A stretch of 64,000 bases of DNA, from the NCBI RefSeq assembly GCF_946480185.1, contig NZ_CAMLIG010000002.1, positions 124,001 through 188,000 on the forward strand, in the 5' to 3' direction. The stretch comes from an uncultured Pedobacter sp. (GTDB taxonomy: Bacteria; Bacteroidota; Bacteroidia; Sphingobacteriales; Sphingobacteriaceae). Below, piece by piece: positions 19,721 to 38,159 of this stretch (positions within the stretch are counted from its first letter, which is position 1; every line of letters begins with the position of its first letter). The notes beneath the pieces were generated by a model. That model had not been told where the DNA came from and searched no databases. It was given only the letters and a program-made list of their open reading frames with translations. The translations under genes were made by a program, and so were the position numbers.

Positions 19721-19766
19721 GCTCCCAAGCCTGGGCTCGAACCAGGGACCCTCTGATTAACAGTCA
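19721..19766. repeat. Left attachment site: 46-bp fragment of tRNA-Asn
   Basis: Identical over 46 bases to 38085-38130, which covers the anticodon loop through the 3' end of the intact tRNA-Asn. The fragment lacks the 5' half (D arm and acceptor strand), so it is an att remnant and not a tRNA gene. Confidence 0.95.
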
Positions 19767-19949: not shown

Positions 19950-21185
19950 ATGTTTGGCACTACTACCGCTATAATTCACGATAAAAGAATCAAACGCAAA
20001 GATGATAAATTTGCTGTAAAGTTGCGAATCACCCATCAAAGGGAACAAAAATATTTCCCTTTAAACGTTTACCTGTTACCCGAAGAGTGGGAAAAAACGC
20101 AATCGGAAAAAGCCAAAGGAGACTATAAAAAGCACAAACTATATTTCAACAAGATCGAGAAAAAGGCGATAGACATTATAGATCATCTGCCCCAGTTCTC
20201 ATTTCAGGCATTTGAAAAAGCTTTCAATCAAAAAACTGACAAGGTAAAAGATGTATTTTATTATTTTGAAGCTTATCTAGTTTCACTAAAAAAGGAAAAC
20301 AGAAGTGGCACTGAAAGCAGTTACAGATGTGCTTTAAACAGCGTCAAGAGCTTCAATGACTCCAAGAACAGGAAGAATCTCCCCTTCTCTGAAATAACGC
20401 CAGAATGGCTACAAAGCTACGAGAACTGGATGGTTAAATCAGGCAGAAGCATTACCAGCGTTGGGATATATTTGAGAAGTTTAAGAACCATCTTAAACCA
20501 GGCTATCGAGGATGGCATCACAACTAAAGAGTTTTACCCATTCGGCAAAAGAAAATATGTTATCCCTGCTGGCAACAATATCAAGAAAGCCCTCACAATA
20601 GCAGATGTTCAGAAAGTGGTTGAATATGTACCAACAACTGTTGCAGAAGAAAAAGCAAAAGATTTTTGGGTATTAAGTTATTTATGCAATGGTGCAAATA
20701 TGAAGGATTTAGCGCTACTAAAAGGAACTGATGTGGATGATAAAAGAATAGTGTTTGTAAGAGCTAAAACTGCCCGTACAACCAAGCAAAATTTGAAACC
20801 AATAGTTGTGATGATGTTGCCAGAGATAAAAGCTATTATAAAAAAATGGGGCATCAATAAAGATAACAATGGCTTTTTATTCGGCATCTTAGAACTTGAA
20901 GACAACTCTGAAACCCAGTTAAAGAAAGTAAGGCACTTTATTAAAACCAACAACAAATACATGAAGCGTATTGGCGTTACGTTAGGCTTTGATTTAAAGC
21001 TTACAAGCTACTCTGCCCGTCATTCGTTCGCAACAGTGCTTAAACGTTCTGGTGCGCCTATAGAGTTTATATCAGAGAGTTTAGGGCACAAGGATTTAAG
21101 AACTACAGAAAGCTACTTAGATAGTTTTGAGGATGATGTTAAAGAATCTTTTCAAAAGCAACTGCTTAATTTTTCAAAAACATGA
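19950..21185 (+). CDS. Tyrosine recombinase (island integrase)
   Basis: A 411-residue site-specific recombinase. An Arm-type N-terminal domain (residues 1-95, RIKRKDDKFAVKLRITHQRE) is followed by the SAM-like core-binding domain (about 105-205) and a catalytic domain (210-400). Visible catalytic residues are K in RAKTART, R-x-x-H in TSYSARHSFATVLK, the second H in LGHKDLRTTESYL and the nucleophile Y in the same segment. At the first arginine position the motif reads CNGANMKDLALL, so Asn replaces the canonical Arg, a feature of many Bacteroidota recombinases. It should catalyse insertion into and excision from the tRNA-Asn gene. It is encoded 183 bp inside the left att site. Confidence 0.93.
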   Translation: MFGTTTAIIHDKRIKRKDDKFAVKLRITHQREQKYFPLNVYLLPEEWEKTQSEKAKGDYKKHKLYFNKIEKKAIDIIDHLPQFSFQAFEKAFNQKTDKVKDVFYYFEAYLVSLKKENRSGTESSYRCALNSVKSFNDSKNRKNLPFSEITPEWLQSYENWMVKSGRSITSVGIYLRSLRTILNQAIEDGITTKEFYPFGKRKYVIPAGNNIKKALTIADVQKVVEYVPTTVAEEKAKDFWVLSYLCNGANMKDLALLKGTDVDDKRIVFVRAKTARTTKQNLKPIVVMMLPEIKAIIKKWGINKDNNGFLFGILELEDNSETQLKKVRHFIKTNNKYMKRIGVTLGFDLKLTSYSARHSFATVLKRSGAPIEFISESLGHKDLRTTESYLDSFEDDVKESFQKQLLNFSKT

Positions 21186-21255: not shown

Positions 21256-23268
21256 ATGAATAATGATATTATCGCTCAATTAAAATCTCATTTTGACACA
21301 TTTTACAAGGATGCAACTGATAATGCTTTAAAGCGATTTAATTTATTCAAAACAAATATCGAAAATCTAACGGTAGAGGAACAGATAATCAAACTCATTT
21401 CAGAAGAACAAGAGGTTAAAACCGAAGAAATCACACTAGAAAAAAGGGAATACAAAGAATTATCTTCCAATATTGGCTGGCTGTTTAAATGTTTTACCAA
21501 TAGATTTCTGATTTATAATGTAGATGACTCTGAAAATGCTTCAAAAGGAATCGTTCTTGGTCTATATGAAGACAAACTTGGAGACCTATTTCATACCTTA
21601 CGTAAAGGTTTACAAAAATATACCTTTGAAGATTTCATATCTGGTAAAGAAGACAAGCTATTTAAAATACTATATAAAAAATCCCCAACTGTTAGTCATC
21701 AAGATTTCTTAAAAATTCATACATGGCAAAACAAATATTTTTCCGATTTAACAGAGCTTCAACGATTAATAATGGTAAATAATTTCAGAAATTCCACTGA
21801 CATTAAAAATTACCATGAAGAATTGAGAATTGAAATTAGTCTATGTAATCATATTTACAATTCCAGTAATTTAACCCCAGAGTTAATAGTTCAATCATTT
21901 AAAAAACTTAAAGGATTAAGAGAGTATGATTTTTCATCAATAGATAATCTAGAGTTTGCTGTGATCTTTGAAAATCATATAAAAAGCGAGTCAATTCCTT
22001 TTAATTTTTTAAACCCACAAACGCTATTACCCTTAATAGAAACCTATACGAGAACCCAATCAGCAAAATTACTTAGTCATCCAGCACTAATCTTTCACTC
22101 CATTAATTTATATAGGATGTGGCTTGAAACTGTTGTAAATGACTTTGTTGATTATAAAGATGACCTAAACCCTTCCTACGGCAATATATTATCACATTGC
22201 AAAGAGAATGGACTAAAAAATGCTGATGATTTCATTGTTTTTTTTAATACCCAACATGGGTCGTTACCTGAAAAAGGCAGTGCCTACAAACGGATTTTAC
22301 ATCAATATTCAAATCAATTTCGCCAATCGCTAAACAATCTTCCCCATCTCCAATATTACAACTTCTTATATAACCGGGAAGTGCTTGAGACAATTCTAAC
22401 ACAGCTTTATTTTGTAGATAACCGCCCTTGGGATGAATATGAAACATTAACATTAAGTTTCGAACTAGACAAAAAAATAAATTTTATAATTAGTAAGTTA
22501 TCTGAAGTTTATGGCAATCAAACTTTTTTAGAGGATGGAGACAATACATATAAAGAATTAATTGATATGAATTATATGACACAAGAACTCTTTTTAGATT
22601 CAGATTTGTTAGTAAAGTTTAAACAGAGTTTAAGTGAATTCAAAAAGAACAAGTTTTCGGAAAGAATACCAAAACATTTTATTTTTAAAAACCTTAGCGA
22701 AAGCATTAGTGAAATCTTTAACGAAGCCATAAATAGATTACAAGAAGCTTTAGACACAAGTCCAATCAGTGGAAAAATATTTTATATTCAAGATAGGCTA
22801 AGAGATTTACGTAAAGAAGAACTAAATGCTAAACGCAAGGACTCGCCTATTGGTAATTTCCATTCATATTTTAAAAAGTTTTTAGATATTGAAGCAGAAT
22901 ACTTAAAACAAACCGTTCAAAGTGAATCCAAGCTCACAACCACAACTCTATTTATTGAAGAACAAACTGATAACCAAACAAATTCTTTGACTGCTCAAAA
23001 GCCAACCAAACTCAAAACCAAACTTTCAGTTCCTCAGCTTGCATACTTTTTTAAAGCCTTAGTGGCCGAAGATTTCTTTGAGTTCAAAACTAAAAAAGAG
23101 ATTTATGATTTCATATCTGTAAACTTTTCTTCCAAGGGTTCTGAAGATATTAGCGAAAATAGTATTAAAAACAAATATGAACAACCAAAGTTGGAGGACG
23201 TAGATTTTTTACATCATAAATTCATAAACCTATGCCAGACAGCTAAAAAAGACAAAGATAATTTATAG
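21256..23268 (+). CDS. Uncharacterised 670-residue protein with RteC-like C-terminus
   Basis: A long, mostly helical, soluble protein with no signal peptide. I do not recognise residues 1-590. The last 70 residues (LSVPQLAYFFKALVAEDFFE, then SEDISENSIKNKYEQP) have the pattern seen at the end of RteC-type regulators of Bacteroidota conjugative transposons: a short helical domain followed by a DNA-binding-like unit. It lies 70 bp after the integrase in the same direction, a usual place for an excision or transfer regulator. A regulatory role is inferred from that context and the C-terminal pattern only. Confidence 0.55.
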   Translation: MNNDIIAQLKSHFDTFYKDATDNALKRFNLFKTNIENLTVEEQIIKLISEEQEVKTEEITLEKREYKELSSNIGWLFKCFTNRFLIYNVDDSENASKGIVLGLYEDKLGDLFHTLRKGLQKYTFEDFISGKEDKLFKILYKKSPTVSHQDFLKIHTWQNKYFSDLTELQRLIMVNNFRNSTDIKNYHEELRIEISLCNHIYNSSNLTPELIVQSFKKLKGLREYDFSSIDNLEFAVIFENHIKSESIPFNFLNPQTLLPLIETYTRTQSAKLLSHPALIFHSINLYRMWLETVVNDFVDYKDDLNPSYGNILSHCKENGLKNADDFIVFFNTQHGSLPEKGSAYKRILHQYSNQFRQSLNNLPHLQYYNFLYNREVLETILTQLYFVDNRPWDEYETLTLSFELDKKINFIISKLSEVYGNQTFLEDGDNTYKELIDMNYMTQELFLDSDLLVKFKQSLSEFKKNKFSERIPKHFIFKNLSESISEIFNEAINRLQEALDTSPISGKIFYIQDRLRDLRKEELNAKRKDSPIGNFHSYFKKFLDIEAEYLKQTVQSESKLTTTTLFIEEQTDNQTNSLTAQKPTKLKTKLSVPQLAYFFKALVAEDFFEFKTKKEIYDFISVNFSSKGSEDISENSIKNKYEQPKLEDVDFLHHKFINLCQTAKKDKDNL

Positions 23269-24788: not shown

Positions 24789-27700
24789 ATGTCAACTAAG
24801 TTTTTTACAAATGAAAATGAGAATACCCTTTTAAGCAAAATAGAAGGAATTTTTAAATACCGTAACATCCATTTTTTTGATGCGTTAGTAGGCTACTTTA
24901 GAGCATCTGGATATTTCAGGATAAGACCTTTTGTAGATAAAGCAGAAGAGATTAGAATACTAGTAGGTATTAATATCGATAATCTAATTTACGAAGCAAA
25001 TAGAAGAGGGCTACTATTTATTGAAGACCCTGGCAAAAGCAGAGAAGACTTCTTTCTTGAATTAAAAGCTAATATCCAAGAAGCAGAGTATGACAAAGAA
25101 GTTGAAGATGGAATGATGCAGATGATTGAAGATTTAGTTACTGGTAAAATAAAAATACGAGTACATCCAAAACAAAATCTTCATGCCAAAATTTATATTT
25201 TTAGGGAAAAAGAAAAACATAACCATGGCTATGGTTCTGTAATTACTGGTTCCAGTAATCTTACCGATAATGGGCTATCTAGAAATTTTGAATTTAATGT
25301 CGAGGTAAGAGAAAATACCGATATTGAGTTTGCAACAGAAACTTTTGACAGACTATGGAGCGAAAGCGTAGAAGTAGGGAATGAATTTGTAGAAAAACTG
25401 AAAAAAGAAACATATTTGAATGACGACTTCACACCATTTGAAGTTTATATGAAATTCTTAATTGAATATTTCGGTCGGAGTATTGATTTTGATCCTAATT
25501 CAATTCAAGATTTGCCACAAGGATTCAAAAAGTTGTCTTATCAAGTAGATGCGGTAGCCGATGGTTACAGTAAAATGATGAAGCACCATGGGTTCTTTTT
25601 ATCAGATGTGGTTGGTCTAGGTAAAACAATCGTTGCCACATTAATTGCAAAAAAGTTTTTTTATACCAATGGCTTTCCATCCTATTTATCACGCACACTA
25701 ATTATTTGTCCTCCTGCAATTAAAGAAAACTGGGAAGATACTTTATCTAAGTTTGGGTTACATAACTACAAAATAGTAACCTCCGGTAGCTTACATAGAA
25801 TTAATAAACAGCATGACTACGACTTAATTATTGTTGATGAAGCACATAAATTTAGAAGTGACAGTGCAGAAATGTATTTCCATTTGCAGAATATATGTAA
25901 ATCACATACCAGAAAAAAACTTACAGACGATACCTACGAACAAAAAAGAGTGATGCTCATTTCCGCTACACCCTTAAATAATAAACCCGAAGATATTGCA
26001 AACCTTGTTTATCTATTTCAAGATGCAAAAAGCTCTACATTAGAAACTGGAAACCTTCAACATTTCTTTCGTGGTCAAATTGATGCTTACAAAAAATTAA
26101 AAGCAGAATCGGACATTCAAAAAGTTACAGCAGGTGTAAAAAGTATTTATGAAAAAATAAGAGTTAAAGTAATAGAACCCCTTACGGTACGTAGAACCCG
26201 AACAGACCTTTCAGAAAATGAGGAATATGCAAAAGACTTAAAAGAACAAGGAGTTGTTTTTCCGGCAGTAAATAAGCCCGAAAAGATTTTTTATCAATTA
26301 GATGAGCATCTAGATAAAGTGTATGACAAAACAATTCTATACTTAAGTCATCCAACGAAAGGATTGACCTATAACCGTTATCAAGCAATCAAATATTTAA
26401 AGCCTCATAAAAAAGCAAAATATCAAAAGGCAGATATGATTTCTACCCAGTTAGCTTTCATTATGAAAACAATGCTGGTAAAACGTATTGACAGCAGTTT
26501 TTTCGCATTTAAAAAATCTTTGGGGCGTTTTTCTGATGCTACTAATGCAATGGTGCAAATGTTCAAAAACAATAGAATTTATATTGCACCAAATTACAAT
26601 GTAAGTGAGTATATAAACAATGACAAGGAGGAGGAGTTAATTACTCTCTTAACCGAGTTAAAGGACACGGACCCGACTATAGAAATCTGTACAAAAGAAG
26701 ACTTTGAACCCAACTTTATAAAGGGCCTGGAAAATGACAAGGAACTATTGGAAGAGTTGGTAATAGAATGGGCAAAAATAACTTACGACCCAAAACTTGA
26801 TGAATTTAAGAAATATCTTAACACCAGGCTGTTCGACAAAAAAATAAATAGAGAAGAAAAATTAGTAATTTTTTCTGAATCCAAAGAGACAATAACCTAT
26901 TTGTTTGAAGAGCTCCGAAAAGCAAACTTTGATAAAATATTAGTAGTTGACAGCAAAAACCGAAAAGAGAAATTCCCTTTTGTCAAAGCTAATTTTGATG
27001 CAAACATTCCGTTAACTGATCAAAAAGATGATTTCAACATTGTAATTAGTACTGAAGTATTAGCCGAAGGTGTTAATATGCACAGGGCAAATATCATTGT
27101 TAATTATGACACACCGTGGAACAGTACTAAACTGATGCAAAGGATTGGGCGTGTCAATCGTATTGGCTCTAAAGCCAATAATATTTACATATTTAATTTT
27201 TTTCCAACTGCTAAAGTTAATAGTGACATAGAATTAGAGAAAAAAGCAATTATGAAATTGCAGGCATTTCATAGTGCTTTAGGCGAGGACAGTCAGATAT
27301 ATTCACCAGACGAAATAACAGAGAGTTTTGGTTTATTTGATAAAAACGTAAATGAAGAGAAGGATGAAAAGTTAAGAATACTGTTAGAGCTACGCAAATT
27401 CAAAAAGGACAATCCAGACCTTTTTAAACAAATCAAAAATATGCCTATGAGAGCAAGGGTAGGCAGAAAAAGCCCCGTTCTAAAAGGAGCTACCATTACT
27501 TTTATAAGAAACGAAAAAAGGGATGCTTTTTTATTGGTAAAGGAGAATGAAATAATAGACGAGTTGACCTTCCTACAAGCAGAAAAAGAATACTATGCGA
27601 AAGTTACAGAAAAGGCAATTCCATTGTGCGTAAACCACCATGCTCAAGTTCAAAGTGCTATAAAGCTGTTTGCTGATAAAATGGAAGATGAAAAAAGCAA

Positions 27701-28055
27701 AGATCGGAAAATAGATACTACACAAGGTCCTAATGAAAAAAGAGCATTAAGTTTCTTAGACGCTGTCATCAACATCGCAATTGCTAATGTTATCGAAAAG
27801 GAATTACTTCAAAACGCAAAATCGGCAATTCGTTTAGGTAGATTTCAAAAGCTCCAAAGAGACATAAACAAGTTAGCCAAAGCAATAAAGGTTGCACCTT
27901 TAAAGCCAGCTATTTTATTAGAGGAGGTTATAAAAATCTTAAATAAATATCCCTTGCAAACCATTGAAGATGAAACTGTGCAAACTTTTAAACCTATTTA
28001 TAATGTAAAAGAGTTTAAGCCTGAAATAATTATTAGCGAAAGTTTCGATAACTAA
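24789..28055 (+). CDS. PLD-nuclease-like domain fused to SNF2-type SF2 helicase
   Basis: A 1088-residue fusion. Residues about 10-205 form a phospholipase-D-like domain with one H-x-K motif (LHAKIYIF near 138, then GSVITGSSNLTDNGL). Such domains are nuclease-like and usually dimerise to complete the site. The SF2 helicase follows: LSYQVDAV, Walker A SDVVGLGKTIVATLIA, DLIIVDEAHKFR, MLISATPLNN, and C-terminal VVISTEVLAEGVNMHRANII and LMQRIGRVNRIG. This is the SNF2/RapA-like arrangement of double-stranded DNA translocases. It is the first gene of the cassette, 15 bp before the methyltransferase. Translocation plus cleavage of foreign DNA is inferred. Confidence 0.88.
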   Translation: MSTKFFTNENENTLLSKIEGIFKYRNIHFFDALVGYFRASGYFRIRPFVDKAEEIRILVGINIDNLIYEANRRGLLFIEDPGKSREDFFLELKANIQEAEYDKEVEDGMMQMIEDLVTGKIKIRVHPKQNLHAKIYIFREKEKHNHGYGSVITGSSNLTDNGLSRNFEFNVEVRENTDIEFATETFDRLWSESVEVGNEFVEKLKKETYLNDDFTPFEVYMKFLIEYFGRSIDFDPNSIQDLPQGFKKLSYQVDAVADGYSKMMKHHGFFLSDVVGLGKTIVATLIAKKFFYTNGFPSYLSRTLIICPPAIKENWEDTLSKFGLHNYKIVTSGSLHRINKQHDYDLIIVDEAHKFRSDSAEMYFHLQNICKSHTRKKLTDDTYEQKRVMLISATPLNNKPEDIANLVYLFQDAKSSTLETGNLQHFFRGQIDAYKKLKAESDIQKVTAGVKSIYEKIRVKVIEPLTVRRTRTDLSENEEYAKDLKEQGVVFPAVNKPEKIFYQLDEHLDKVYDKTILYLSHPTKGLTYNRYQAIKYLKPHKKAKYQKADMISTQLAFIMKTMLVKRIDSSFFAFKKSLGRFSDATNAMVQMFKNNRIYIAPNYNVSEYINNDKEEELITLLTELKDTDPTIEICTKEDFEPNFIKGLENDKELLEELVIEWAKITYDPKLDEFKKYLNTRLFDKKINREEKLVIFSESKETITYLFEELRKANFDKILVVDSKNRKEKFPFVKANFDANIPLTDQKDDFNIVISTEVLAEGVNMHRANIIVNYDTPWNSTKLMQRIGRVNRIGSKANNIYIFNFFPTAKVNSDIELEKKAIMKLQAFHSALGEDSQIYSPDEITESFGLFDKNVNEEKDEKLRILLELRKFKKDNPDLFKQIKNMPMRARVGRKSPVLKGATITFIRNEKRDAFLLVKENEIIDELTFLQAEKEYYAKVTEKAIPLCVNHHAQVQSAIKLFADKMEDEKSKDRKIDTTQGPNEKRALSFLDAVINIAIANVIEKELLQNAKSAIRLGRFQKLQRDINKLAKAIKVAPLKPAILLEEVIKILNKYPLQTIEDETVQTFKPIYNVKEFKPEIIISESFDN

Positions 28056-28070
28056 GTAAAACTTTAATAA

Positions 28071-31000
28071 ATGCTAGAAAAAGAAATTAAAGACATCCTA
28101 ACTCTTCCTTATGACCGTGAAAACTTTGGTCAATGGCAAAGGCTTATTGATTTTGTGTTTCCTAAAGTTAATTTTGAGAACTCAATCGTTTCGCTAGAAG
28201 ACAACAACATTTTAGAAGACAATAACAATAAAACCAAATACGTTCATCAAAAAGGAGACATTACCTTAACAGACGGCAAAAAAATAATCATTCTCGAGGT
28301 TTGCGTTAAAAAAGGACATATTATTGCTCGTACAAAAGTTGGTTTCCATAATCTAACGGCTAAATTTATTGACCAAGCCAACAACCATGGTATTTTAGTT
28401 TTTTATATCTCCGAAGATGAGGCGCAAACAGATTATCGACTTTCTTTGATTTGTAAGGAATCAAGATTTAACCAAGATGGTTTTTTAGAAGAATTTAAAA
28501 CCAACCCTAAACGTTACACTTATTTATTAGGAGAAAACGAAACCAATACTACTCCGGCTAGGCGTTTAAAAGAATTAGCTACAAAAAAGAATGATTTTAA
28601 CTTTGAATTGCAAGATGTTATAGAAGCATTTTCTGTTGAAAAACTAAATGATGAGTTCTTTAGAAAATACAAAGAACAATTCAATATTTTCAATAATTAC
28701 TTAATAGAGGATGATAATATCAGATATAATATTTTCGAGCTCGAAAGAAACGAAAGTGAAAGTAATAAAGTTGAAAACGAACTGCCTATTAGAGATTTTA
28801 CTAAAAAATTATTAGGGCGTTTGGTGTTCCTTTATTTTTTACAACGGAAAGGATGGATGGGTGTACCTACACCACAAAAAGATAAAGAAGTAATTTGGAA
28901 AGGGGGCTACAATAATTTTATACACAAGCTTTTTAATGAAGCTGACTCCGCAGATAAGTTCCATAGTAAATATTTAACTGAATTATTTTACAACACATTA
29001 AACAATAAGGAACGTGAAGGTTATATATTTCTGATAGATGGCAAATCTCCTTTTGCAGACGGCAAAAAAGTTAGCGTACCTTACTTAAATGGTGGTTTAT
29101 TTGATGATGATTTTTCTAACGGTAACAAAATAGATTTTCCTAAACAACTTTTCGAAAGTCTATTTGCATTTTTAGAACAATATAATTTCACCATAGATGA
29201 AAATAGCCCGGAAGACCATGAGGTAGGGATTGACCCAGAAATGCTTGGACACATTTTTGAAAACTTATTGGAAGATAACAGAGACAAAGGAGCGTATTAC
29301 ACCCCTAAAGAAGTGGTGCACTATATGAGCCAACAAAGTATTATACACTATTTAAAGCACAACCTAAAAACCGATGCAAGCGATATAGATAAATTTATTA
29401 AAAGCAATATAATCTCTGAATACATCAAAGTAAACCAATCGAAAATAAATACCTTACTAATAGAAGTAAAAGTATGTGACCCTGCAATTGGTTCGGGTGC
29501 ATTTCCAATGGGTGTTTTAAAAGTTATTTTTAACTCCTTATTAAATCTCCACAATTCCCAAAACTCCAACAAACCTTTTAACGAGGCGAAGGTAAAAAAG
29601 AAAATTATCCAAAAAAGCATTTATGGTGTTGATATTGAAAAAGGAGCTGTAGATATTGCTCGTCTTCGCTTTTGGCTCGCCTTGGTAGTAGATGAAGATG
29701 AACCTCAACCACTTCCTAACTTAGATTATAAAATAATGCAGGGAAATAGCATTTTAGAGAAATTTGAGGATGTTGATTTGAGCAGTCTGTTAAAAGAAGA
29801 TGAAGACGAAACTATAGTTGCGTACAAAGGACAAGTTGAACTTCAAGGCTTTGGCCGTGACCAAGCGGTTTTCATATTTGACAGTAAAACAAAAAAGGAG
29901 TTTCAAAATCTTATTGACTTGTATTTTGACTTCAGAGTGGGAACGACACATCTATACAAGTCAAAAAAAGAAGTAAAACTAAAGATTAACTCAATAATTG
30001 AGGGTAGTTTAAAATCGAAATTCGCTCTGGACAGGTCAAAACTTCAAGCAACACTTTCAGAAAAGAAAAACCATGAGAAAGCAATTGTTGTCAATAAAAA
30101 TGACCCAAAAGGCATTCATGATAGAAAACAGAAAGCATTAATAAAACTGATTAAGGAAATTGAATATATAAATTATAAAATAGGTCATTTAAGTGATGTT
30201 TTAGACCGCTTAAATCAATGGGAGTATCAGGAAAAAGAAAGACCTTATTTTTTATGGCATACTTATTTTAAAGATGTATTTGATAAAGGTGGTTTTGATA
30301 TTATTATAGGTAACCCACCATACATAAAAGAATATACCAATAAGAATGTTTTTGAGGGTATAAGAGACAGCCCCTATTATATTGGGAAAATGGATATTTG
30401 GTATTTCTTTGCCTCTTTCTGTATTGACATGCTCAAAGAAAATGGCGGTATCCAATGTTTTATAGCACAAAACAATTGGATTACGAGCTCTGGCGCTTCT
30501 AAACTTCGAAATAAAATAGTAAAGGAAACAGAAATGCTTTCTTTTACTGATTTTGGTAATTACAAAGTGTTCCAAAGTGCCGGTATCCAAACAATGATTT
30601 ACCTAGTGAAGAAAACACAACCAAGAGAAAAATATACGACCAGTTATTCAAAACTTTTGGTTGATAATATCGATAAAGCATTTTTAGATTACTTCTTGCA
30701 GTCTAACACAACAGTATCGCATGAGAATTTTGAGAAAGTAGATTTTGATTTTGTACCTGCATCTTATTTTAATAGCTATATCACATTTGCTAACGAAGTG
30801 AATGATAATATCCTAAAAAAGATCCAAGCTGTCGAACATATAAATTTAGAAGAAAAAGAAATCGCTACAGGCATTCAACCTAATCCGGATGTTGTCAACT
30901 CGAGAAATATTAAACGTTTTTCTGAATTAGAAATATTAGAGAATAAAATAAAAGTTGGAGATGGAGTTTTTGTTGTTCCGAAAGGGAAATTTGACAACTT

Positions 31001-31853
31001 AAATGAAGTTGAACGAAAATACATTAAACCTGTTTTTGAACCAAAAGAGGTTCAACGTTATAAGTTTATTGAGGACTATGATTCGGAAATTCTTTATATA
31101 ACTAAAGCTAATTACCAGAATGACGCTCCTAATTTATTAATGCATCTATCTCTTTATAGCAAAATAATGGAAGAGAGACGCGAAAATCAAAATGGTAGAC
31201 TTACATACTTTCATTTACAATGGCCTCGTGATGAGAGTTTTTTTAAGACAGGGGATAAAATTCTCAGTGTGCGAAAGTGTGAAAGACCGACATTTATTTA
31301 CACCTCAGCCGACTCATATGTAATGCTATCATTTAATGTAATCAGGACAGAGAGAGTAAACTTGAAGTTTCTTACTGCTTTACTTAATAGTAAACTGATA
31401 GCTTTTTGGTTAAAAAACAAAGGGAAAATGCAGGGTAATAATTATCAAATAGATAAAGAGCCTTTATTAGAAATACCAATAGCTTTAACAAATAAGCAAC
31501 ACATCATTGCAACCTTGGTAGATTATATTTTGTTAGTACATCAGCCCCGAGAAGGACAATTAATAAAATACATAGATAATGATTTAATTATCCATTCTTT
31601 TGACGAATTAATAGATCAAATTTTCTATGAAATCTACTTTTCAACGGAACCAGAAATGGAAGAATTAAAAGTTTTGCAATATTTAGAAGATTTAGAGCCA
31701 ATATCAGAAAGCTTTAATGATGAAGATGTTAAAACAGTCATATCATTTTATCATAAGATTCAGGAACAAAAAAGCCCAATACGTAGCGTATTGCTTAAAG
31801 CAAATATTGTAAGTAAGGATATCATTGCAGTAATCAACTCAACCATTAACTGA
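28071..31853 (+). CDS. Eco57I-like adenine methyltransferase with possible N-terminal nuclease domain
   Basis: A 1260-residue protein of the type IIG/PglX style. The N-terminal domain has D63 in KGDITLTDG and E76 in KIIILEVCVKKG, like a PD-(D/E)xK core but with Cys where the catalytic Lys is expected (nearest Lys at 80). A helical linker leads to YYTPKEVVHYMSQQS and SAM motif I CDPAIGSGAFPMGVL (near 470). The catalytic motif DIIIGNPPYIKEY is near 745, typical of N6-adenine methylation. The C-terminal 400 residues look like a target-recognition domain (LLNSKLIAFWLKNKGKMQGN). Its TGA overlaps the next ATG by one base (TGATG), indicating coupling. Whether it also cuts DNA is open. Confidence 0.88.
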   Translation: MLEKEIKDILTLPYDRENFGQWQRLIDFVFPKVNFENSIVSLEDNNILEDNNNKTKYVHQKGDITLTDGKKIIILEVCVKKGHIIARTKVGFHNLTAKFIDQANNHGILVFYISEDEAQTDYRLSLICKESRFNQDGFLEEFKTNPKRYTYLLGENETNTTPARRLKELATKKNDFNFELQDVIEAFSVEKLNDEFFRKYKEQFNIFNNYLIEDDNIRYNIFELERNESESNKVENELPIRDFTKKLLGRLVFLYFLQRKGWMGVPTPQKDKEVIWKGGYNNFIHKLFNEADSADKFHSKYLTELFYNTLNNKEREGYIFLIDGKSPFADGKKVSVPYLNGGLFDDDFSNGNKIDFPKQLFESLFAFLEQYNFTIDENSPEDHEVGIDPEMLGHIFENLLEDNRDKGAYYTPKEVVHYMSQQSIIHYLKHNLKTDASDIDKFIKSNIISEYIKVNQSKINTLLIEVKVCDPAIGSGAFPMGVLKVIFNSLLNLHNSQNSNKPFNEAKVKKKIIQKSIYGVDIEKGAVDIARLRFWLALVVDEDEPQPLPNLDYKIMQGNSILEKFEDVDLSSLLKEDEDETIVAYKGQVELQGFGRDQAVFIFDSKTKKEFQNLIDLYFDFRVGTTHLYKSKKEVKLKINSIIEGSLKSKFALDRSKLQATLSEKKNHEKAIVVNKNDPKGIHDRKQKALIKLIKEIEYINYKIGHLSDVLDRLNQWEYQEKERPYFLWHTYFKDVFDKGGFDIIIGNPPYIKEYTNKNVFEGIRDSPYYIGKMDIWYFFASFCIDMLKENGGIQCFIAQNNWITSSGASKLRNKIVKETEMLSFTDFGNYKVFQSAGIQTMIYLVKKTQPREKYTTSYSKLLVDNIDKAFLDYFLQSNTTVSHENFEKVDFDFVPASYFNSYITFANEVNDNILKKIQAVEHINLEEKEIATGIQPNPDVVNSRNIKRFSELEILENKIKVGDGVFVVPKGKFDNLNEVERKYIKPVFEPKEVQRYKFIEDYDSEILYITKANYQNDAPNLLMHLSLYSKIMEERRENQNGRLTYFHLQWPRDESFFKTGDKILSVRKCERPTFIYTSADSYVMLSFNVIRTERVNLKFLTALLNSKLIAFWLKNKGKMQGNNYQIDKEPLLEIPIALTNKQHIIATLVDYILLVHQPREGQLIKYIDNDLIIHSFDELIDQIFYEIYFSTEPEMEELKVLQYLEDLEPISESFNDEDVKTVISFYHKIQEQKSPIRSVLLKANIVSKDIIAVINSTIN

Positions 31854-33718
31854 TGAAAATTACGGAACTGCAACTACAAAATTTCAAATTCTTTACTGGC
31901 GAGGATAATGTTCTTAAAATGCCCAAAGGCGAAAACGTATTGATATGGGGAGAGAATGGGAGTGGCAAATCTTCTATTTATTGGGCAATTTACACCATGT
32001 TGCAATGCAGTTTTAAAGACGCTCAAGGTATAGATGATTATTTTACTGTTAATCATGAAAAGAATCTTATCAATATCCACAAACCAACGGCAGACCCCTC
32101 TTTTGTTCGAATGTCACTTGATAATGGGAACGAATATAAAATCGCCTTAGGAGATTTCAGTATAGTTAATGACCAAGACATTCAATTGAGTGCAGTAAGC
32201 AGTGACTTTATCAACTATCAAGTTCTCGCCAGTTTTTTGAGTTTCTACCATCGGGACGACCCCCATTTATTTGAAATGTTTAAGAACGAAGTTTTTAGGT
32301 ACTTGCCGTTTTCTTCTCCTGCTCCATATACTTTTCAATTTCTTGACGTGGCGTGGGAAGAGCTAAATAAAAAACTTGTAAAAAAAGGTAAGCCCAGCAA
32401 ATATCCGAATAAGCAATCTACAACGATTACTAATAAAAATAACCTGAAAAACGCATTTAATATTCAGTTAAAAACAATATTAGGAAACGCAACAACGAAA
32501 GCAAATGAAATCTTACTAACAAAATTTGGATATGATATCGAAATAGAGTTAGAATATAGAGAGTATAACTTTGAAGTATTAGCCAATAATAGCGATGTTC
32601 GTTATACGAAGCCTGAAATTTTTCTAAAGATCAGAAAGTACTACGGTAAAGAAAATGCAGTAAAAAAGCCTCATTCTTTCCTAAACGAAGCAAAAAAAAC
32701 AGCAATAGGTTTAGCTATCCGATTAGGCATATTAGAAAGAAGGCTATTAGCGGACAAACTCAATGTTCTTGCTCTTGATGATTTATTGATAAGTTTAGAT
32801 ATGAGTAATAGAGAGGTTGTTTTAAAGCTATTACTAGACGAATATCAAGAAAAATATCAGCTTCTAATTTTTACCCACGATAAGCAGTTTTTTAATATTG
32901 CGAAGAATAAAATAGAAAATAATACACAAAAAGACAATTGGTTATTTTGGGAATTTTATATTAATGAAAAAGACCCATTAATACCAAAGCCAAGATTTTT
33001 TGAAGATGAAACAGAATTATCAAGGGCTTTGTATCATTTAGCAGAAAGTGATTACCCAGCATCAGTAAATTATTTACGTAAGCATACCGAAAAACTGTTA
33101 GAGAAATACCTGCCACAACATCTTTATGCGAACATTGATAAAGAAGAGCCAAACTGTAACTATACTTTAGATTCAATGATAAGCAGGGCAATTATTTTTT
33201 TCCAAAAAATAAACCAGCCACTTGTTGTGGCTGGCTTGGTTGATTTAAAGCAGTACGTTAAAATATTACTAAACCCTCTATCTCATACAGAACGTGGCGT
33301 ACAAAGACACAAAGGCGAGATTAAAGCTGTTATTAAAACTTTAGATGATTTAGAAACAGCTTTTTCAAATGCAGAGTTTAAAGTACATCTAAAAACAGGT
33401 CAACTTGTTACACTTTCATTGGTTAAAAGTGCAACTGTTTATTATGAAATTGATGTAAGGCTATTAGAAGAAATGTTTTGGTTTAAAGACGGTGCAGATA
33501 CAAAGTTTACTTTATGTAAATCAGAATCCACACAGATAAGAGAATTTGAAAACAACGCTTTAAAAGAAGATAAAAAATTCAATCATTACAAAGATTTGCC
33601 ACTTGTTGAATTATACCATCAGATAGCACAACATAATGCCTTTCAAATTGCCATTATTCCCAACTGGGAAACACTGTATAAAAAGGCTGATGGTACAACA
33701 ATCAATACATTATTATAA
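31853..33718 (+). CDS. AAA/RecF-like ATPase with helical C-terminal domain
   Basis: A 621-residue P-loop ATPase. The first strand and Walker A are LQLQNFKFF and IWGENGSGKSS (residues 31-41), the SMC/RecF/OLD opening. The Walker B/D-loop segment is VLALDDLLISLDMSNR near residue 303 with two Asp, then LLIFTHDKQFF (switch His). A helical C-terminal part has ALYHLAESDYPASVNYLRKH and NPLSHTERGVQRHKGEIK, containing an R-x4-H (R481, H486) as in HEPN ribonucleases. There is no TOPRIM domain. It is coupled to the methyltransferase gene and followed after 50 bp by the clamp-like gene. The ATPase call is sure; a toxic RNase activity is speculative. Confidence 0.82.
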   Translation: MKITELQLQNFKFFTGEDNVLKMPKGENVLIWGENGSGKSSIYWAIYTMLQCSFKDAQGIDDYFTVNHEKNLINIHKPTADPSFVRMSLDNGNEYKIALGDFSIVNDQDIQLSAVSSDFINYQVLASFLSFYHRDDPHLFEMFKNEVFRYLPFSSPAPYTFQFLDVAWEELNKKLVKKGKPSKYPNKQSTTITNKNNLKNAFNIQLKTILGNATTKANEILLTKFGYDIEIELEYREYNFEVLANNSDVRYTKPEIFLKIRKYYGKENAVKKPHSFLNEAKKTAIGLAIRLGILERRLLADKLNVLALDDLLISLDMSNREVVLKLLLDEYQEKYQLLIFTHDKQFFNIAKNKIENNTQKDNWLFWEFYINEKDPLIPKPRFFEDETELSRALYHLAESDYPASVNYLRKHTEKLLEKYLPQHLYANIDKEEPNCNYTLDSMISRAIIFFQKINQPLVVAGLVDLKQYVKILLNPLSHTERGVQRHKGEIKAVIKTLDDLETAFSNAEFKVHLKTGQLVTLSLVKSATVYYEIDVRLLEEMFWFKDGADTKFTLCKSESTQIREFENNALKEDKKFNHYKDLPLVELYHQIAQHNAFQIAIIPNWETLYKKADGTTINTLL

Positions 33719-33768
33719 ATTACATAGCTCGTATAATATCCGTAACTCGGTATATAGGATTAAAAATT

Positions 33769-34338
33769 ATGGCTTTAGCAACCTTTACTACTAGCAAAAC
33801 TCAATTAATAAACGTCTTAAAACAATTTATTAAAGTAGCTGGTCAATATAGAAAATCGGAAACAACTGTTGAAATTACCGTTATTGATGATCAAATTAAA
33901 CTTGTAATTCCTGGGGTAAATTTGAATATTACTGCTACTACTTCTGGTAGTGCTAAATTTACCGTTGGCCTTTTATATTTTCTAGAGGTCCTAAAATCAC
34001 ACCCAGAGGATATTGTTCAATTTATGATTAAAGAGGGTTTAGTAAAGTGCAACCAAGTTTCGTTTCCAGCTCCTACCACTTTTTTTGCAATAGATGATAT
34101 TTTAAGAAGCATCGATTTGCCGATCAATTTTATAAATATGCACATGGCTAAAATGGCAATATCTGGTAAATATACCGCCGGAGAAATTGCTTTTAATAAT
34201 CTTGAACAACAAAAAGAGGAAGCTTTAATAATGTTAAAACAAGATATTGATAAAATCACTTATATCGCTCAACCCTATGGTATTACCCAAAAAGATGTTG
34301 AAGATTTTATGATTTATAAAATTAAGGAAGCCAATTAA
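33769..34338 (+). CDS. Small protein with beta-clamp-like N-terminal domain (hypothetical)
   Basis: A 189-residue protein I cannot assign to a named family. Its first 115 residues follow the strand/helix order of one DNA sliding-clamp (DnaN) domain: opening F-T-T-S-K-T-Q-L helix, VEITVIDDQIKLVIPG and LNITATTSGSAKFTV strands, a helix, and VQFMIKEGLVKCNQVSF. The C-terminal 70 residues are helical (AFNNLEQQKEEALIMLKQDI). It lies between the ATPase and the AlbA_2 gene in the same direction, with 50- and 28-bp gaps. A clamp-like role on DNA is a fold-pattern guess with no sequence identity claimed. Confidence 0.6.
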   Translation: MALATFTTSKTQLINVLKQFIKVAGQYRKSETTVEITVIDDQIKLVIPGVNLNITATTSGSAKFTVGLLYFLEVLKSHPEDIVQFMIKEGLVKCNQVSFPAPTTFFAIDDILRSIDLPINFINMHMAKMAISGKYTAGEIAFNNLEQQKEEALIMLKQDIDKITYIAQPYGITQKDVEDFMIYKIKEAN

Positions 34339-34366
34339 AACTTTTTTATCGTTTAATAACATTAAT

Positions 34367-36028
34367 ATGATAGACGAAAACCAGCAGTTTGACAGAAAAT
34401 CATTGAGTTTCTTAAAAGGAAGAAACACAGAGTGGGACGAATTAGCTAAAGACTGTGTTTGCTTCGCAAATTCAATTGGTGGTAAAATCTTAATAGGTAT
34501 AGAAGATAGGGAAACTTTACCGCCAGCAAATCAAAAAATTAGTGATAAAACTTTACCGGAAAAGATTGTAAAGCAAATAAACCAACGTACTATAAATACT
34601 GGGGTAACTGCCAGTATTATAACTGCAACCAATCATGCTCAGTACATAGAAGTGATAATTTTACGGAGTGCGCAAACAATAGCATCAACTACTGACGGAA
34701 GATATTATATGAGGGTTTCAGATGTTTGCCGTCCAGTACCTCCAGATGAAATGGCTAGATTGGCATCAGATAAAAATGCCTTCATTTGGGAAGAGCAAAC
34801 TACCAAACGAGTGCCTAACTACAGAACCGACCCGTTAAAAAAGCAACAGTTTATTAACGATATCAAAAGTTCTGAAAAAGTTAGCAGATTTATAAAGGAG
34901 AAAACAGAAGACGAAATACTTGAATATTACTTTTTCAAGAAAAACGATTACTTAACAAACCTCGGAATCTTATGGGTTGGAACAAGACAAGACAGAGCTA
35001 GTTTACTATTTGCACCTTCGGTGCAAATAATAAGATATAACGAGAAGGACGAAAAAGTCTGGAAATTAGCTCTTGACGATTTTGAAGACAATCCTAAAGA
35101 TTTAATTTCAAAAATCATTAATGACGTTCCTGATTGGCAAGAAAGTACGGAAATATCAGATGGTATCTTCAGAAAAAACATACCGTTTATTCCAATTGCA
35201 GTAATAAGAGAATTGGTTGCAAATGCTTTGGTCCATCGTACTTACTCTACTAGAGGCGATATTTTTATCAATATCTTTCCAGACAGACTTGAAATACATA
35301 ATCCTGGGAGATTGCCTTATGGCGTAACACCTCAAAATATTCTAAGTCAATCCATTAGAAGGAATGAACATCTTTCTAAGGTATTCTATGAGCTTAAACT
35401 AATGGAACGTGAAGGTAGCGGATATGATTTAATTTATGAGTTGCTTCTTGGTAATGGCAAACCTTTGCCAATAGTTCAAGAAGGGGATGATAGGGTAACA
35501 GTAACCATTAAGAAACAATTTATAAGCAAAGAAATTGTAAAGCTAATGGACAAAGCAAATCAAGAGTATCAATTAAAACAAAAAGAAATAATTGCTTTAG
35601 GTCTAATTGCACAACATAATTCATTAACCGCAATTGATTTATCTAGCATCTTAAATCAAAAAGACGAAACTGGTTTAAGACATTGGATAGGCAGATTACA
35701 AGATATAGCGCTGATAAATTCCAGAGGAAAAACAAAAGGAACCGAATATTTTATTAACCCTGACTATTTAAAACGCTTAAACTTTAAAGGTAAAACAACT
35801 TTAAAAACAATAGAGTCTCATAGATTACAAGAGCTTATTCATCAAGATTTATCGATTTATCCTGAAAGTCAAATCGGCGATATACATACTAGAATTGGAA
35901 TGGAAATCCCTAAACGTAGGCTAAAAACAGAATTAGACAGATTGGTTGCAATAGAAAAATTAATCCGAGATGGGGATAAAAGATGGACCAAATATTCTAT
36001 CAACAAAATGATGTTAAATAATAAGTAA
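34367..36028 (+). CDS. AlbA_2 (Schlafen-like) domain protein with HATPase-type and winged-helix domains
   Basis: A 553-residue protein. The N-terminal AlbA_2 domain (residues 1-130) shows LSFLKGRNTEWDELAKDC and FANSIGGKILIGIEDRE. A GHKL-like ATP-binding domain (about 265-385) shows AVIRELVANALVHRTYSTRG, LEIHNPGRLPYGV and EREGSGYDLIYE. The C-terminal third contains two winged-helix-like segments (LRHWIGRLQDIALINSRGKT). These proteins are usually called putative transcriptional regulators, and some relatives cleave RNA or act in defence. It is the last cassette gene, 28 bp after the clamp-like gene. It may regulate the cassette or be an effector. Confidence 0.82.
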   Translation: MIDENQQFDRKSLSFLKGRNTEWDELAKDCVCFANSIGGKILIGIEDRETLPPANQKISDKTLPEKIVKQINQRTINTGVTASIITATNHAQYIEVIILRSAQTIASTTDGRYYMRVSDVCRPVPPDEMARLASDKNAFIWEEQTTKRVPNYRTDPLKKQQFINDIKSSEKVSRFIKEKTEDEILEYYFFKKNDYLTNLGILWVGTRQDRASLLFAPSVQIIRYNEKDEKVWKLALDDFEDNPKDLISKIINDVPDWQESTEISDGIFRKNIPFIPIAVIRELVANALVHRTYSTRGDIFINIFPDRLEIHNPGRLPYGVTPQNILSQSIRRNEHLSKVFYELKLMEREGSGYDLIYELLLGNGKPLPIVQEGDDRVTVTIKKQFISKEIVKLMDKANQEYQLKQKEIIALGLIAQHNSLTAIDLSSILNQKDETGLRHWIGRLQDIALINSRGKTKGTEYFINPDYLKRLNFKGKTTLKTIESHRLQELIHQDLSIYPESQIGDIHTRIGMEIPKRRLKTELDRLVAIEKLIRDGDKRWTKYSINKMMLNNK

Positions 36029-36153: not shown

Positions 36154-36258
36154 CATTTCTTAAAATTGTTAATAGCTTTACATCGTTTAGAGTCATTATC
36201 AAATAAAATCATAATCCAACCCATTACCTCCAGCAGGTTAATTTCCCAAAACAAAATT

Positions 36259-36911
36259 CCCGACACACATTAACCAACTTACGGTAACGCACAGCAAGAG
36301 TAAGTCAATTTGAAATCACACAGACCCATTTCAAATCGCCTCACCCTTGCTTTTCCCTACGCTTTTGCCCACCGCACCCGGTTATAAGGCATTCCTCGTT
36401 CGTTGCAAACATAAGCTACGCCAAAATTTCATTGCCGTTCGTACCTCACTACAATTCAACCCTAAAGGGCTTTGGTTTTGTCATACCTTCTGTTTTTGCA
36501 ACTCACTCGTCATAGTTGCTACTTCCTGCCTCATCACACCTCAATCCATTCATAAATTCGCACAAAACCACCGCCACTGTAATGCCTTTAATTTATTCAC
36601 TCCTTTCGGTATAATTCGTCAGGTCGCAACTAGTTTTTATGTGCTCGCCTGCTCCATCGTTCGGGCTTCACTCAAACTCACCGCACAAAGCCGACGCTTC
36701 TTTTCGTTCGTGTAGCACCCACAATCCCGACACACAACCCGCTACATAGCTTTGGTCATTTATTGGTTTTTTGTTGTTTATTTTGATTGCAAAAACCAAT
36801 AAATGCCTTTCCAAAGCACCCTCTCTCAACTCGCAACCGCTTCCATTTCCCGACACACAATCCCGACACACATTCCAGCGGTTTTAACGGCTCGCATCAT
36901 CCCGACACACA
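36259..36911. repeat. Five dispersed copies of the 11-mer CCCGACACACA
   Basis: Copies are at 36259-36269, 36726-36736, 36849-36859, 36862-36872 and 36901-36911, all in the same orientation. The last three lie within 63 bp. An exact 11-mer five times in 650 bp is far above chance and looks like an iteron or protein-binding array. Confidence 0.8.
36758..36805. repeat. Perfect 15-bp inverted repeat
   Basis: CATTTATTGGTTTTT at 36758-36772 pairs with AAAAACCAATAAATG at 36791-36805 across an 18-base spacer. It could fold as a long stem in DNA or RNA. It sits among the CCCGACACACA copies. Confidence 0.75.
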
Positions 36912-37288: not shown

Positions 37289-37930
37289 ATGGGAAAGATT
37301 TCTCAAGGAGTGTATGGAGGGTTTTCGGGAAAGTTAGGAAATCTTATCGGTGGATCATGGAAAGGTATTGCTTATATGAGAGTAAAGCCTGCAAATGTGT
37401 CTAATCCGAGAACAGAAGGTCAGGTAAACCAAAGAACGAAGTTTACAGGTGCGTTGCAGTTTTTACAGCCACTAAAGGATTTCATCAAAGTAGGTTTTAA
37501 AGGCTCTGCCAACAAAATGTCAGAGTTTAACAGTGCAATGTCTTACACGCTGTCTAATGCAATTACAGGTGTAGCGCCAGATTTCATTGTGGATTACTCT
37601 AAAGCTCTTTTGAGCAGAGGAAGTCTGCCGGGAGCATTAAATCCATTGGCAAGCTCAACAGTTGCCGGCAGTGTGGTAGTTTCTTGGGATGACAACACAT
37701 TGAACGGAACTGCAAGCGCAACAGACAAAAGTTTAATTGCTTTATACAACCCGAACAAGGCGGAAGCAATTTACACTTTAGAGGGCGGTTCTAGAGCCAC
37801 AGGAACAGAAACGTTGGCAGTGCCAACAAACTACTCTGGCGATGATTTAGAAGCTTACATCAGCTTTAAATCATTGGACGGCACTTCTATATCGAATAGC
37901 GTCTATATTGGATCAGTGACGGTTGCTTAG
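37289..37930 (+). CDS. DUF6266 family protein
   Basis: A 213-residue protein beginning MGKISQGVYGGFSGKLGNLI, with GSWKGIAYMRVKPANVSNPR and Q-x-N-Q-R-T-K-F-T-G following. This glycine-rich opening is diagnostic of DUF6266, a Bacteroidota family of unknown function. The C-terminal half is an immunoglobulin-like beta-rich domain (VAGSVVVSWDDNTL; AYISFKSLDGTSISNSVYIG). A clear GTGAGGTAG Shine-Dalgarno-like stretch precedes ATG 37289, and a terminator follows, so it is a stand-alone gene at the right end of the island. No signal peptide is seen. Confidence 0.85.
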   Translation: MGKISQGVYGGFSGKLGNLIGGSWKGIAYMRVKPANVSNPRTEGQVNQRTKFTGALQFLQPLKDFIKVGFKGSANKMSEFNSAMSYTLSNAITGVAPDFIVDYSKALLSRGSLPGALNPLASSTVAGSVVVSWDDNTLNGTASATDKSLIALYNPNKAEAIYTLEGGSRATGTETLAVPTNYSGDDLEAYISFKSLDGTSISNSVYIGSVTVA

Positions 37931-38084: not shown

Positions 38085-38130
38085 GCTCCCAAGCCTGGGC
38101 TCGAACCAGGGACCCTCTGATTAACAGTCA
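38085..38130. repeat. Right attachment site: 46-bp repeat within tRNA-Asn
   Basis: Perfect direct repeat of 19721-19766. It covers the 3' part of the intact tRNA-Asn from the anticodon loop to the discriminator, plus one flanking base. Confidence 0.95.
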
Positions 38131-38159
38131 GATGCTCTAACCAGCTGAGCTACTTAGGA
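38086..38159 (-). tRNA. tRNA-Asn (GTT anticodon)
   Basis: A 74-base gene read leftward. The acceptor TCCTAAG pairs with CTTGGGA (one G-T), the D arm is GCTCAGCTGGTTAGAGC, the anticodon arm TCTGACTGTTAATCAGA carries GTT, and the T arm is CCTGGTTCGAGCCCAGG. The discriminator is G and CCA is not encoded. It is intact although it is the target of the island, which restores the 3' half. It decodes AAY codons. Confidence 0.95.

Follow-up and report, generated by a model that had tools for sequence, protein, structure and literature searches.

Helicase-nuclease, methyltransferase and ABC ATPase genes as the predicted core of a restriction-like cassette in a Pedobacter island

Five co-directional genes lie close together in the genome of an uncultured Pedobacter sp., raising the question of whether they form one defence system or a smaller conserved unit accompanied by other genes. 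We analysed a window of 64,000 nucleotides from this genome; coordinates refer to it unless a locus is named. The features discussed are the following.

19721..19766, no strand: attachment-site repeat, left copy, 46 bp, identical to 38085-38130
19950..21185, + strand: island tyrosine integrase (Phage_integrase, Phage_int_SAM_5)
24789..28055, + strand: gene 1, HKD(PLD)-nuclease fused to SNF2-type helicase, 1088 aa, core (Pfam PLDc_2, SNF2 and Helicase_C; conserved motifs)
28071..31853, + strand: gene 2, Eco57I-type predicted N6-adenine DNA methyltransferase with TaqI_C specificity domain, 1260 aa, core (Pfam Eco57I/N6_Mtase and TaqI_C; conserved motifs)
31853..33718, + strand: gene 3, RecF/SMC-head-like ABC ATPase with helical and beta C-terminal parts, 621 aa, core of the subtype (Pfam SMC_N; predicted fold)
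33769..34338, + strand: gene 4, single-domain DnaN-like clamp with C-terminal helices, 189 aa, accessory (predicted model; no Pfam match)
34367..36028, + strand: gene 5, Schlafen/AlbA_2 and HATPase_c_4 protein, 553 aa, accessory (Pfam SLFN_AlbA_2 and HATPase_c_4)
38085..38130, no strand: attachment-site repeat, right copy, inside tRNA-Asn 38085-38159 (-)

The initial annotation had described five co-directional, tightly spaced open reading frames in a mobile island, and our analysis confirmed this arrangement, with all five at the stated coordinates and on the + strand. The gaps from gene 1 to gene 5 measure 15, -1, 50 and 28 bp. The integrated element spans 18.4 kb; its ends are formed by an exact 46-bp direct repeat matching the 3' part of tRNA-Asn, with the tyrosine integrase directly inside the left copy. 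GC content is 33.3% in the element, compared with 36.1% and 37.9% on its two sides. To the right of the element, a chromosomal protein shares 69% identity with Pedobacter paludis (L022 genome) and 67% with Mucilaginibacter gossypii (L015), the top values among 12 genomes, so that the host is probably related to these. The island also encodes a 670-aa protein adjoining the integrase (21256-23268), without Pfam, NCBIfam or PADLOC match, and, at its right end, a DUF6266 protein (37289-37930). To the right of gene 5 (36250-36911), a 20-nt repeat occurs four times (80-100% identity), and its copies finish with ATCCCGACACACA or a close variant.

A species-genome collection was searched with the gene 3 alignment alone, using two short peptide patterns and then tblastn. 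This yielded 75 loci, whose counts are not independent because several are near relatives (for example L018/L038, L023/L027/L033, L040/L042). Since the search used gene 3 only, its neighbours were not selected for. Gene 3 was strong, with E below 1e-20 to the profile, in 66 of the 75 loci. Where strong loci extended at least 7.6 kb upstream, gene 2 was found in 52/52, directly adjacent in 50 and with one ORF between in L051 and L055, and gene 1 was present in 49/52 in the same order and on the same strand (47 by script; L043 and L051 read off the map). In the remaining three, L017, L019 and L025, gene 1 is missing, and L019 has a gene 2 of only 363 aa. Fourteen strong loci with less than 7.6 kb upstream contained gene 2 in six cases and gene 1 in three, and the nine loci with a weak ATPase match had neither. 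According to database records, the taxa include Bacteroidota, Pseudomonadota, Verrucomicrobiota, Planctomycetota and others. These data bear out the proposal that helicase, methyltransferase and ATPase belong together.

We also sampled 395 genomes of the phylum and found gene 3 in 14, including the L002 genome, for which alone overlap between the two samples was checked; stop codons occur in 4 of these 14 gene-3 matches. When the L002 genome is set aside, gene 2 lies beside gene 3 in 12 of 13. Three loci are cut by contig ends (L099, L103, L107), and genes 1 and 2 accompany gene 3 in 9 of the 10 loci that extend far enough upstream; the exception is L108, a 237-aa gene-3 fragment with neither gene. 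Genes 2 and 3 overlap by 4 or 1 bases at 34 of 56 junctions. Across 52 units (window included), identity-distance matrices correlated at 0.83 for genes 1 and 2, 0.80 for genes 2 and 3 and 0.62 for genes 1 and 3, against a maximum of 0.17 in 2000 permutations; for the 24 units nearest the window the values were 0.67, 0.70 and 0.49 (permutation maximum 0.33), with host relatedness contributing to these correlations.

By contrast, genes 4 and 5 do not follow this unit. The clamp-like gene was detected in 0/75 gene-3 loci, by tblastn and by a profile with filters off, and is missing even from L001 and L002, where genes 1-3 are 78-87% identical to those of the window. Co-occurrence with the helicase and methyltransferase, which the initial annotation had named as decisive for both the ATPase and the clamp-like gene, therefore holds for the ATPase and fails for the clamp. 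Relatives of the AlbA_2 protein were found in 6/75 loci (L009, L018, L038, L043, L048, L053), either between genes 1 and 2 or downstream; besides these, L012 has a 74-aa opposite-strand AlbA_2 fragment. Sequence of at least 1 kb behind gene 3 was available in 60 loci, and a same-strand gene lies within 400 bp in 42 of them, representing 32 protein clusters. Few of these 42 cargo genes were scanned with Pfam or PADLOC; the names obtained are RhuM (L001), DUF4062 with a short pAgo behind it (L018; pAgo E 3e-184), TIR with a pAgo-cluster gene behind it (L025), CTD10 (L042) and DUF3037 (L028), while the cargo gene of L013 had no match to Pfam or PADLOC and that of L003 is presumably Fic-like, by its motif. 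Because this slot varies and relatives of genes 4 and 5 are absent or infrequent at the gene-3 loci, we conclude from the compared sequences that genes 4 and 5 are accessory cargo in a variable 3' slot behind the ATPase. The shared strand, short gaps and common island might suggest that all five genes form one obligatory system, as originally supposed, but the absence of the clamp, even from the close relatives, and the infrequent and displaced AlbA_2 genes make this extremely unlikely.

Several cargo arrangements recur. DUF4062-cluster and pAgo-cluster genes stand directly behind the ATPase in L018 (11644-14432), L023, L027, L033 and L038, several of which are near relatives, and the TIR and pAgo-cluster genes of L025 (11867-14807) occupy the same place. 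In L001 (11873-14986), whose gene 1-3 unit is 79-87% identical to the window, RhuM is followed by a Piwi-domain protein. A YhcG-type PD-(D/E)XK nuclease lies between genes 1 and 2 in L008, L036 and L148, and its cluster is additionally represented in L050 and L051.

The early reading of gene 4 as clamp-like was upheld by its predicted model, which displays a DnaN-type clamp fold, with beta-alpha-beta-beta-beta twice in one domain of about 105 residues, followed by helices. The DnaN sliding clamp has three tandem domains (PF00712, PF02767, PF02768), whereas gene 4 has one, without Pfam match. Clamp homologues hidden behind gene 3 elsewhere were considered and rejected, an unfiltered profile giving none below E 0.5 except the window's own. 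Gene 4 was found in 0/399 genomes of the Pedobacter paludis family and in no plasmid; for viral contigs, pattern matches to gene 4 were obtained and no relative was confirmed. Clamps of this type are rare, 35 homologues of gene 4 being counted, with defence genes nearby in three or four of five readable contexts. In L119 (8078-12643), a single-domain clamp stands between Septu PtuA/PtuB and a UvrD-like helicase. Clamp-binding strings gave one loose match each in genes 1, 2 and 3 and none in gene 5, to which we attach no weight, and a literature search returned no clamp in a defence system among the matches listed. A speculative and rather unlikely idea is that gene 4 is the founding member of a family of free-standing, one-domain sliding clamps that bacterial defence has taken up. 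A ring might be assembled from six copies, in place of two chains with three domains each or three chains with two; alternatively, the domain might intercept the partners of a phage or host clamp. Either way it would hold the motor-driven nuclease on invader DNA undergoing replication, and in islands with both genes the RecF-like ATPase would serve as loader or sensor. Placed in a defence island, a clamp domain would link immunity to the replication fork, the site of phage DNA synthesis.

Is gene 3 itself indispensable to the unit? A reverse search with gene 1 at E <= 1e-60 in 296 genomes recovered it in 26, six of them beside gene 3; the other 20 loci were fetched. In 18 of these 20, gene 1 has gene 2 behind it, immediately adjacent in 12 cases and separated by one or two ORFs in six (L148, L151, L154, L156, L159, L162); the other two are L160, which stops at the contig end, and L165, a gene-1 fragment. 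None of the 16 loci readable beyond gene 2 contains an intact gene 3 (L149 and L154 end inside gene 2), the 20 loci having been picked because no gene 3 was known beside them. Since genes 1 and 2 occur without an intact gene 3, the sequences indicate that helicase and methyltransferase make up the basic unit, to which one subtype adds the ABC ATPase as a third part; gene 3 is therefore not needed for the basic function. In L161 (11884-12222), a 112-aa in-frame remnant of the ABC ATPase, comprising its start and C-terminal part, still overlaps the methyltransferase end.

Both members of the pair retain their predicted catalytic motifs. Gene 1 keeps HxK, GSSN, GKT, D-E-x-H and QRxGR in 53/53 proteins (window included) and SATP in 52/53, and its top PADLOC model is C3a139 'HKD+Snf2'. 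With one conserved HxK-GSSN site per chain, the protein is probably a dimer. Among phage records, the gene 1 search returned 15, and none of the best 10 of these covers 80%. Gene 2, whose top PADLOC model is type IIG, keeps DPAxGSG and NPP[YWF], each in 55/55 proteins. A PD-(D/E)XK-like stretch at residues 60-86 of gene 2 was considered as a second nuclease and rejected, as it is not conserved. Because the N-terminal part of gene 2 has no conserved nuclease motif in the 55-protein comparison, cutting was assigned to gene 1.

SauUSI is likewise a PLD-helicase in one chain. That gene 1, like SauUSI, unites nuclease and helicase-like ATPase domains would suit a modification-dependent type IV helicase-nuclease next to a methyltransferase with a different task. 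However, the presence of gene 2 behind gene 1 in most pair loci and the co-divergence of the two speak against this reading, as do type IV enzymes themselves, which are not known to need a partner methylase, and we regard it as very unlikely.

Gene 3 matches SMC_N/AAA_15 in Pfam and has a RecF/SMC-head fold, the matches listed spanning residues 1-387. The possible HEPN motif first noted in this ATPase did not survive comparison: no R-x4-6-H is conserved among gene 3 relatives, and a catalytic HEPN RNase, suggested by an R-x4-H string, was rejected. In the C-terminal part, R409, E413, N474 and H478 are invariant (42/42). Three plasmid records hold gene 3 at 27-30% identity, two of them covering 80% or more, and viral contigs gave pattern matches with no relative confirmed.

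Gene order, linkage, catalytic motifs, predicted folds, co-divergence and modularity, all read from sequence, point to genes 1-3 as probably an island-borne ATP-dependent restriction-modification system, similar in kind to CglI/NgoAVII and SauUSI, with genes 4 and 5 as cargo. Its neighbours are defence genes: short pAgo, DUF4062, TIR and YhcG nuclease, and, at a pair that lacks gene 3, a PifA-like KAP NTPase. Every activity, and the roles of genes 3, 4 and 5, are what we infer here. Gene 2 would read its site via the TaqI-type specificity domain and methylate adenines of the host. Where invading DNA lacks the mark, the target-recognition complex of gene 2 would set off the SNF2 motor of gene 1, which would track along the DNA, and the HKD nuclease, probably dimeric, would cut. 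Gene 3 may be a DNA-binding partner gated by ATP and working mainly with the methyltransferase, which licenses the change from methylation to cleavage or signals the structures of invading DNA; we hold the licensing role to be about an even call. The gene 4 mini-clamp could tether an effector to DNA or to replication partners, and gene 5 would likely be a back-up Schlafen-type RNase.

PrrC, encoded beside EcoprrI, is a guard that aborts infection when the restriction-modification system is inhibited. By analogy, genes 1 and 2 alone could be the restriction-modification system and gene 3 a PrrC- or PARIS-like guard ABC ATPase, whose HEPN-like C-terminal part aborts infection upon inhibition. 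This fits the common occurrence of pairs without gene 3, the invariant C-terminal residues and the KAP NTPase that takes the third position behind helicase and methyltransferase in L146 (5048-7273, -; the one tested, with a PifA match at 1e-77) and L147 (3974-6412, -). The lack of a conserved R-x4-6-H argues against it, as does the co-divergence of gene 3 with gene 2 and its rarity outside the pair, and we consider a guard unlikely.

How does this set compare with known systems? No PADLOC 2023 or NCBIfam system fits by its named components, in agreement with the initial view of a defence-type cassette matching no named system and lacking drmA/drmB and BREX pglZ/brxC. For DISARM, the DrmD model NF038317 gives 161 bits against a cut-off of 610, no DrmB was found in 11 island proteins (PADLOC; best 25 of 36 matches for gene 1 and best 25 of 35 for gene 2), and DrmA appears only as a helicase match of gene 1. 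PglZ and BrxC are not among the matches listed for the scanned island proteins. A resemblance to MADS comes from mad3, the top PADLOC match of gene 3 (1.3e-10), and by mad2, which matches gene 2 of the relatives L045 (2.4e-13) and L146 (4.7e-11), but a full mad set is lacking: the HTH protein at 23358-23681 matches MAD1 below cut-off (30.6 against 80 bits), and no further mad model is among the matches listed for the 11 island proteins.

Closer parallels come from the literature. Type-2 DUF499-centred BREX-related (BR) systems are described as an N-terminal HKD-endoDNase on a Swi2/Snf2 helicase, an N6-methyltransferase and an ATPase (PMC12839542), the layout also seen in genes 1-3. In these systems the ATPase is DUF499, a group that includes Hma, and DUF3780 occurs in 98% of taxa (PMC12839542); gene 3 instead has the RecF/SMC-head fold, without DUF499 in its full Pfam list, and DUF3780 is absent from the 11 Pfam-scanned island proteins. 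CxC/Pbe systems combine an ABC ATPase with an HKD and SF2 helicase and, in some, a methylase (PMC10853773), a combination that genes 1-3 share. Their ATPase is of the CxC type, with a DndE partner and cytosine methylases (PMC10853773), whereas gene 3 has three cysteines and no CxC or CxxC, no cytosine methylase was found, and neither DndE nor PbeD is among the PADLOC matches listed. CglI and NgoAVII comprise a methyltransferase, a PLD-family nuclease and a helicase-like protein and cut DNA with ATP hydrolysis (PMC4267653). Genes 1-2 likewise encode these three functions together, but nuclease and helicase are separate proteins in CglI and NgoAVII and fused in gene 1, and the present set adds an ABC ATPase and has an Eco57I/N6-class methyltransferase. 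The type IV enzyme SauUSI has nuclease and helicase-like ATPase domains, cuts in an ATP-dependent manner, dimerizes via its nuclease domains and recognises a methylated target through its own target domain (PMC7913695). Gene 1 resembles it in joining nuclease and helicase-like ATPase domains and differs from it in that the specificity domain sits on a separate methyltransferase, gene 2. Taken together, the system is known in kind, because the type-2 BR layout, with another ATPase, and the CxC combination of ABC ATPase and HKD-SF2 helicase precede it, and, subject to earlier description, the composition of genes 1-3 is new with respect to PADLOC 2023, NCBIfam and the BR and CxC descriptions. 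Krishnan et al. 2020 reportedly treat ABC ATPases in conflict systems and may already describe the gene 1-3 set. The comparison thus sets a core apart from its cargo in an unnamed restriction-like system that spans several phyla.
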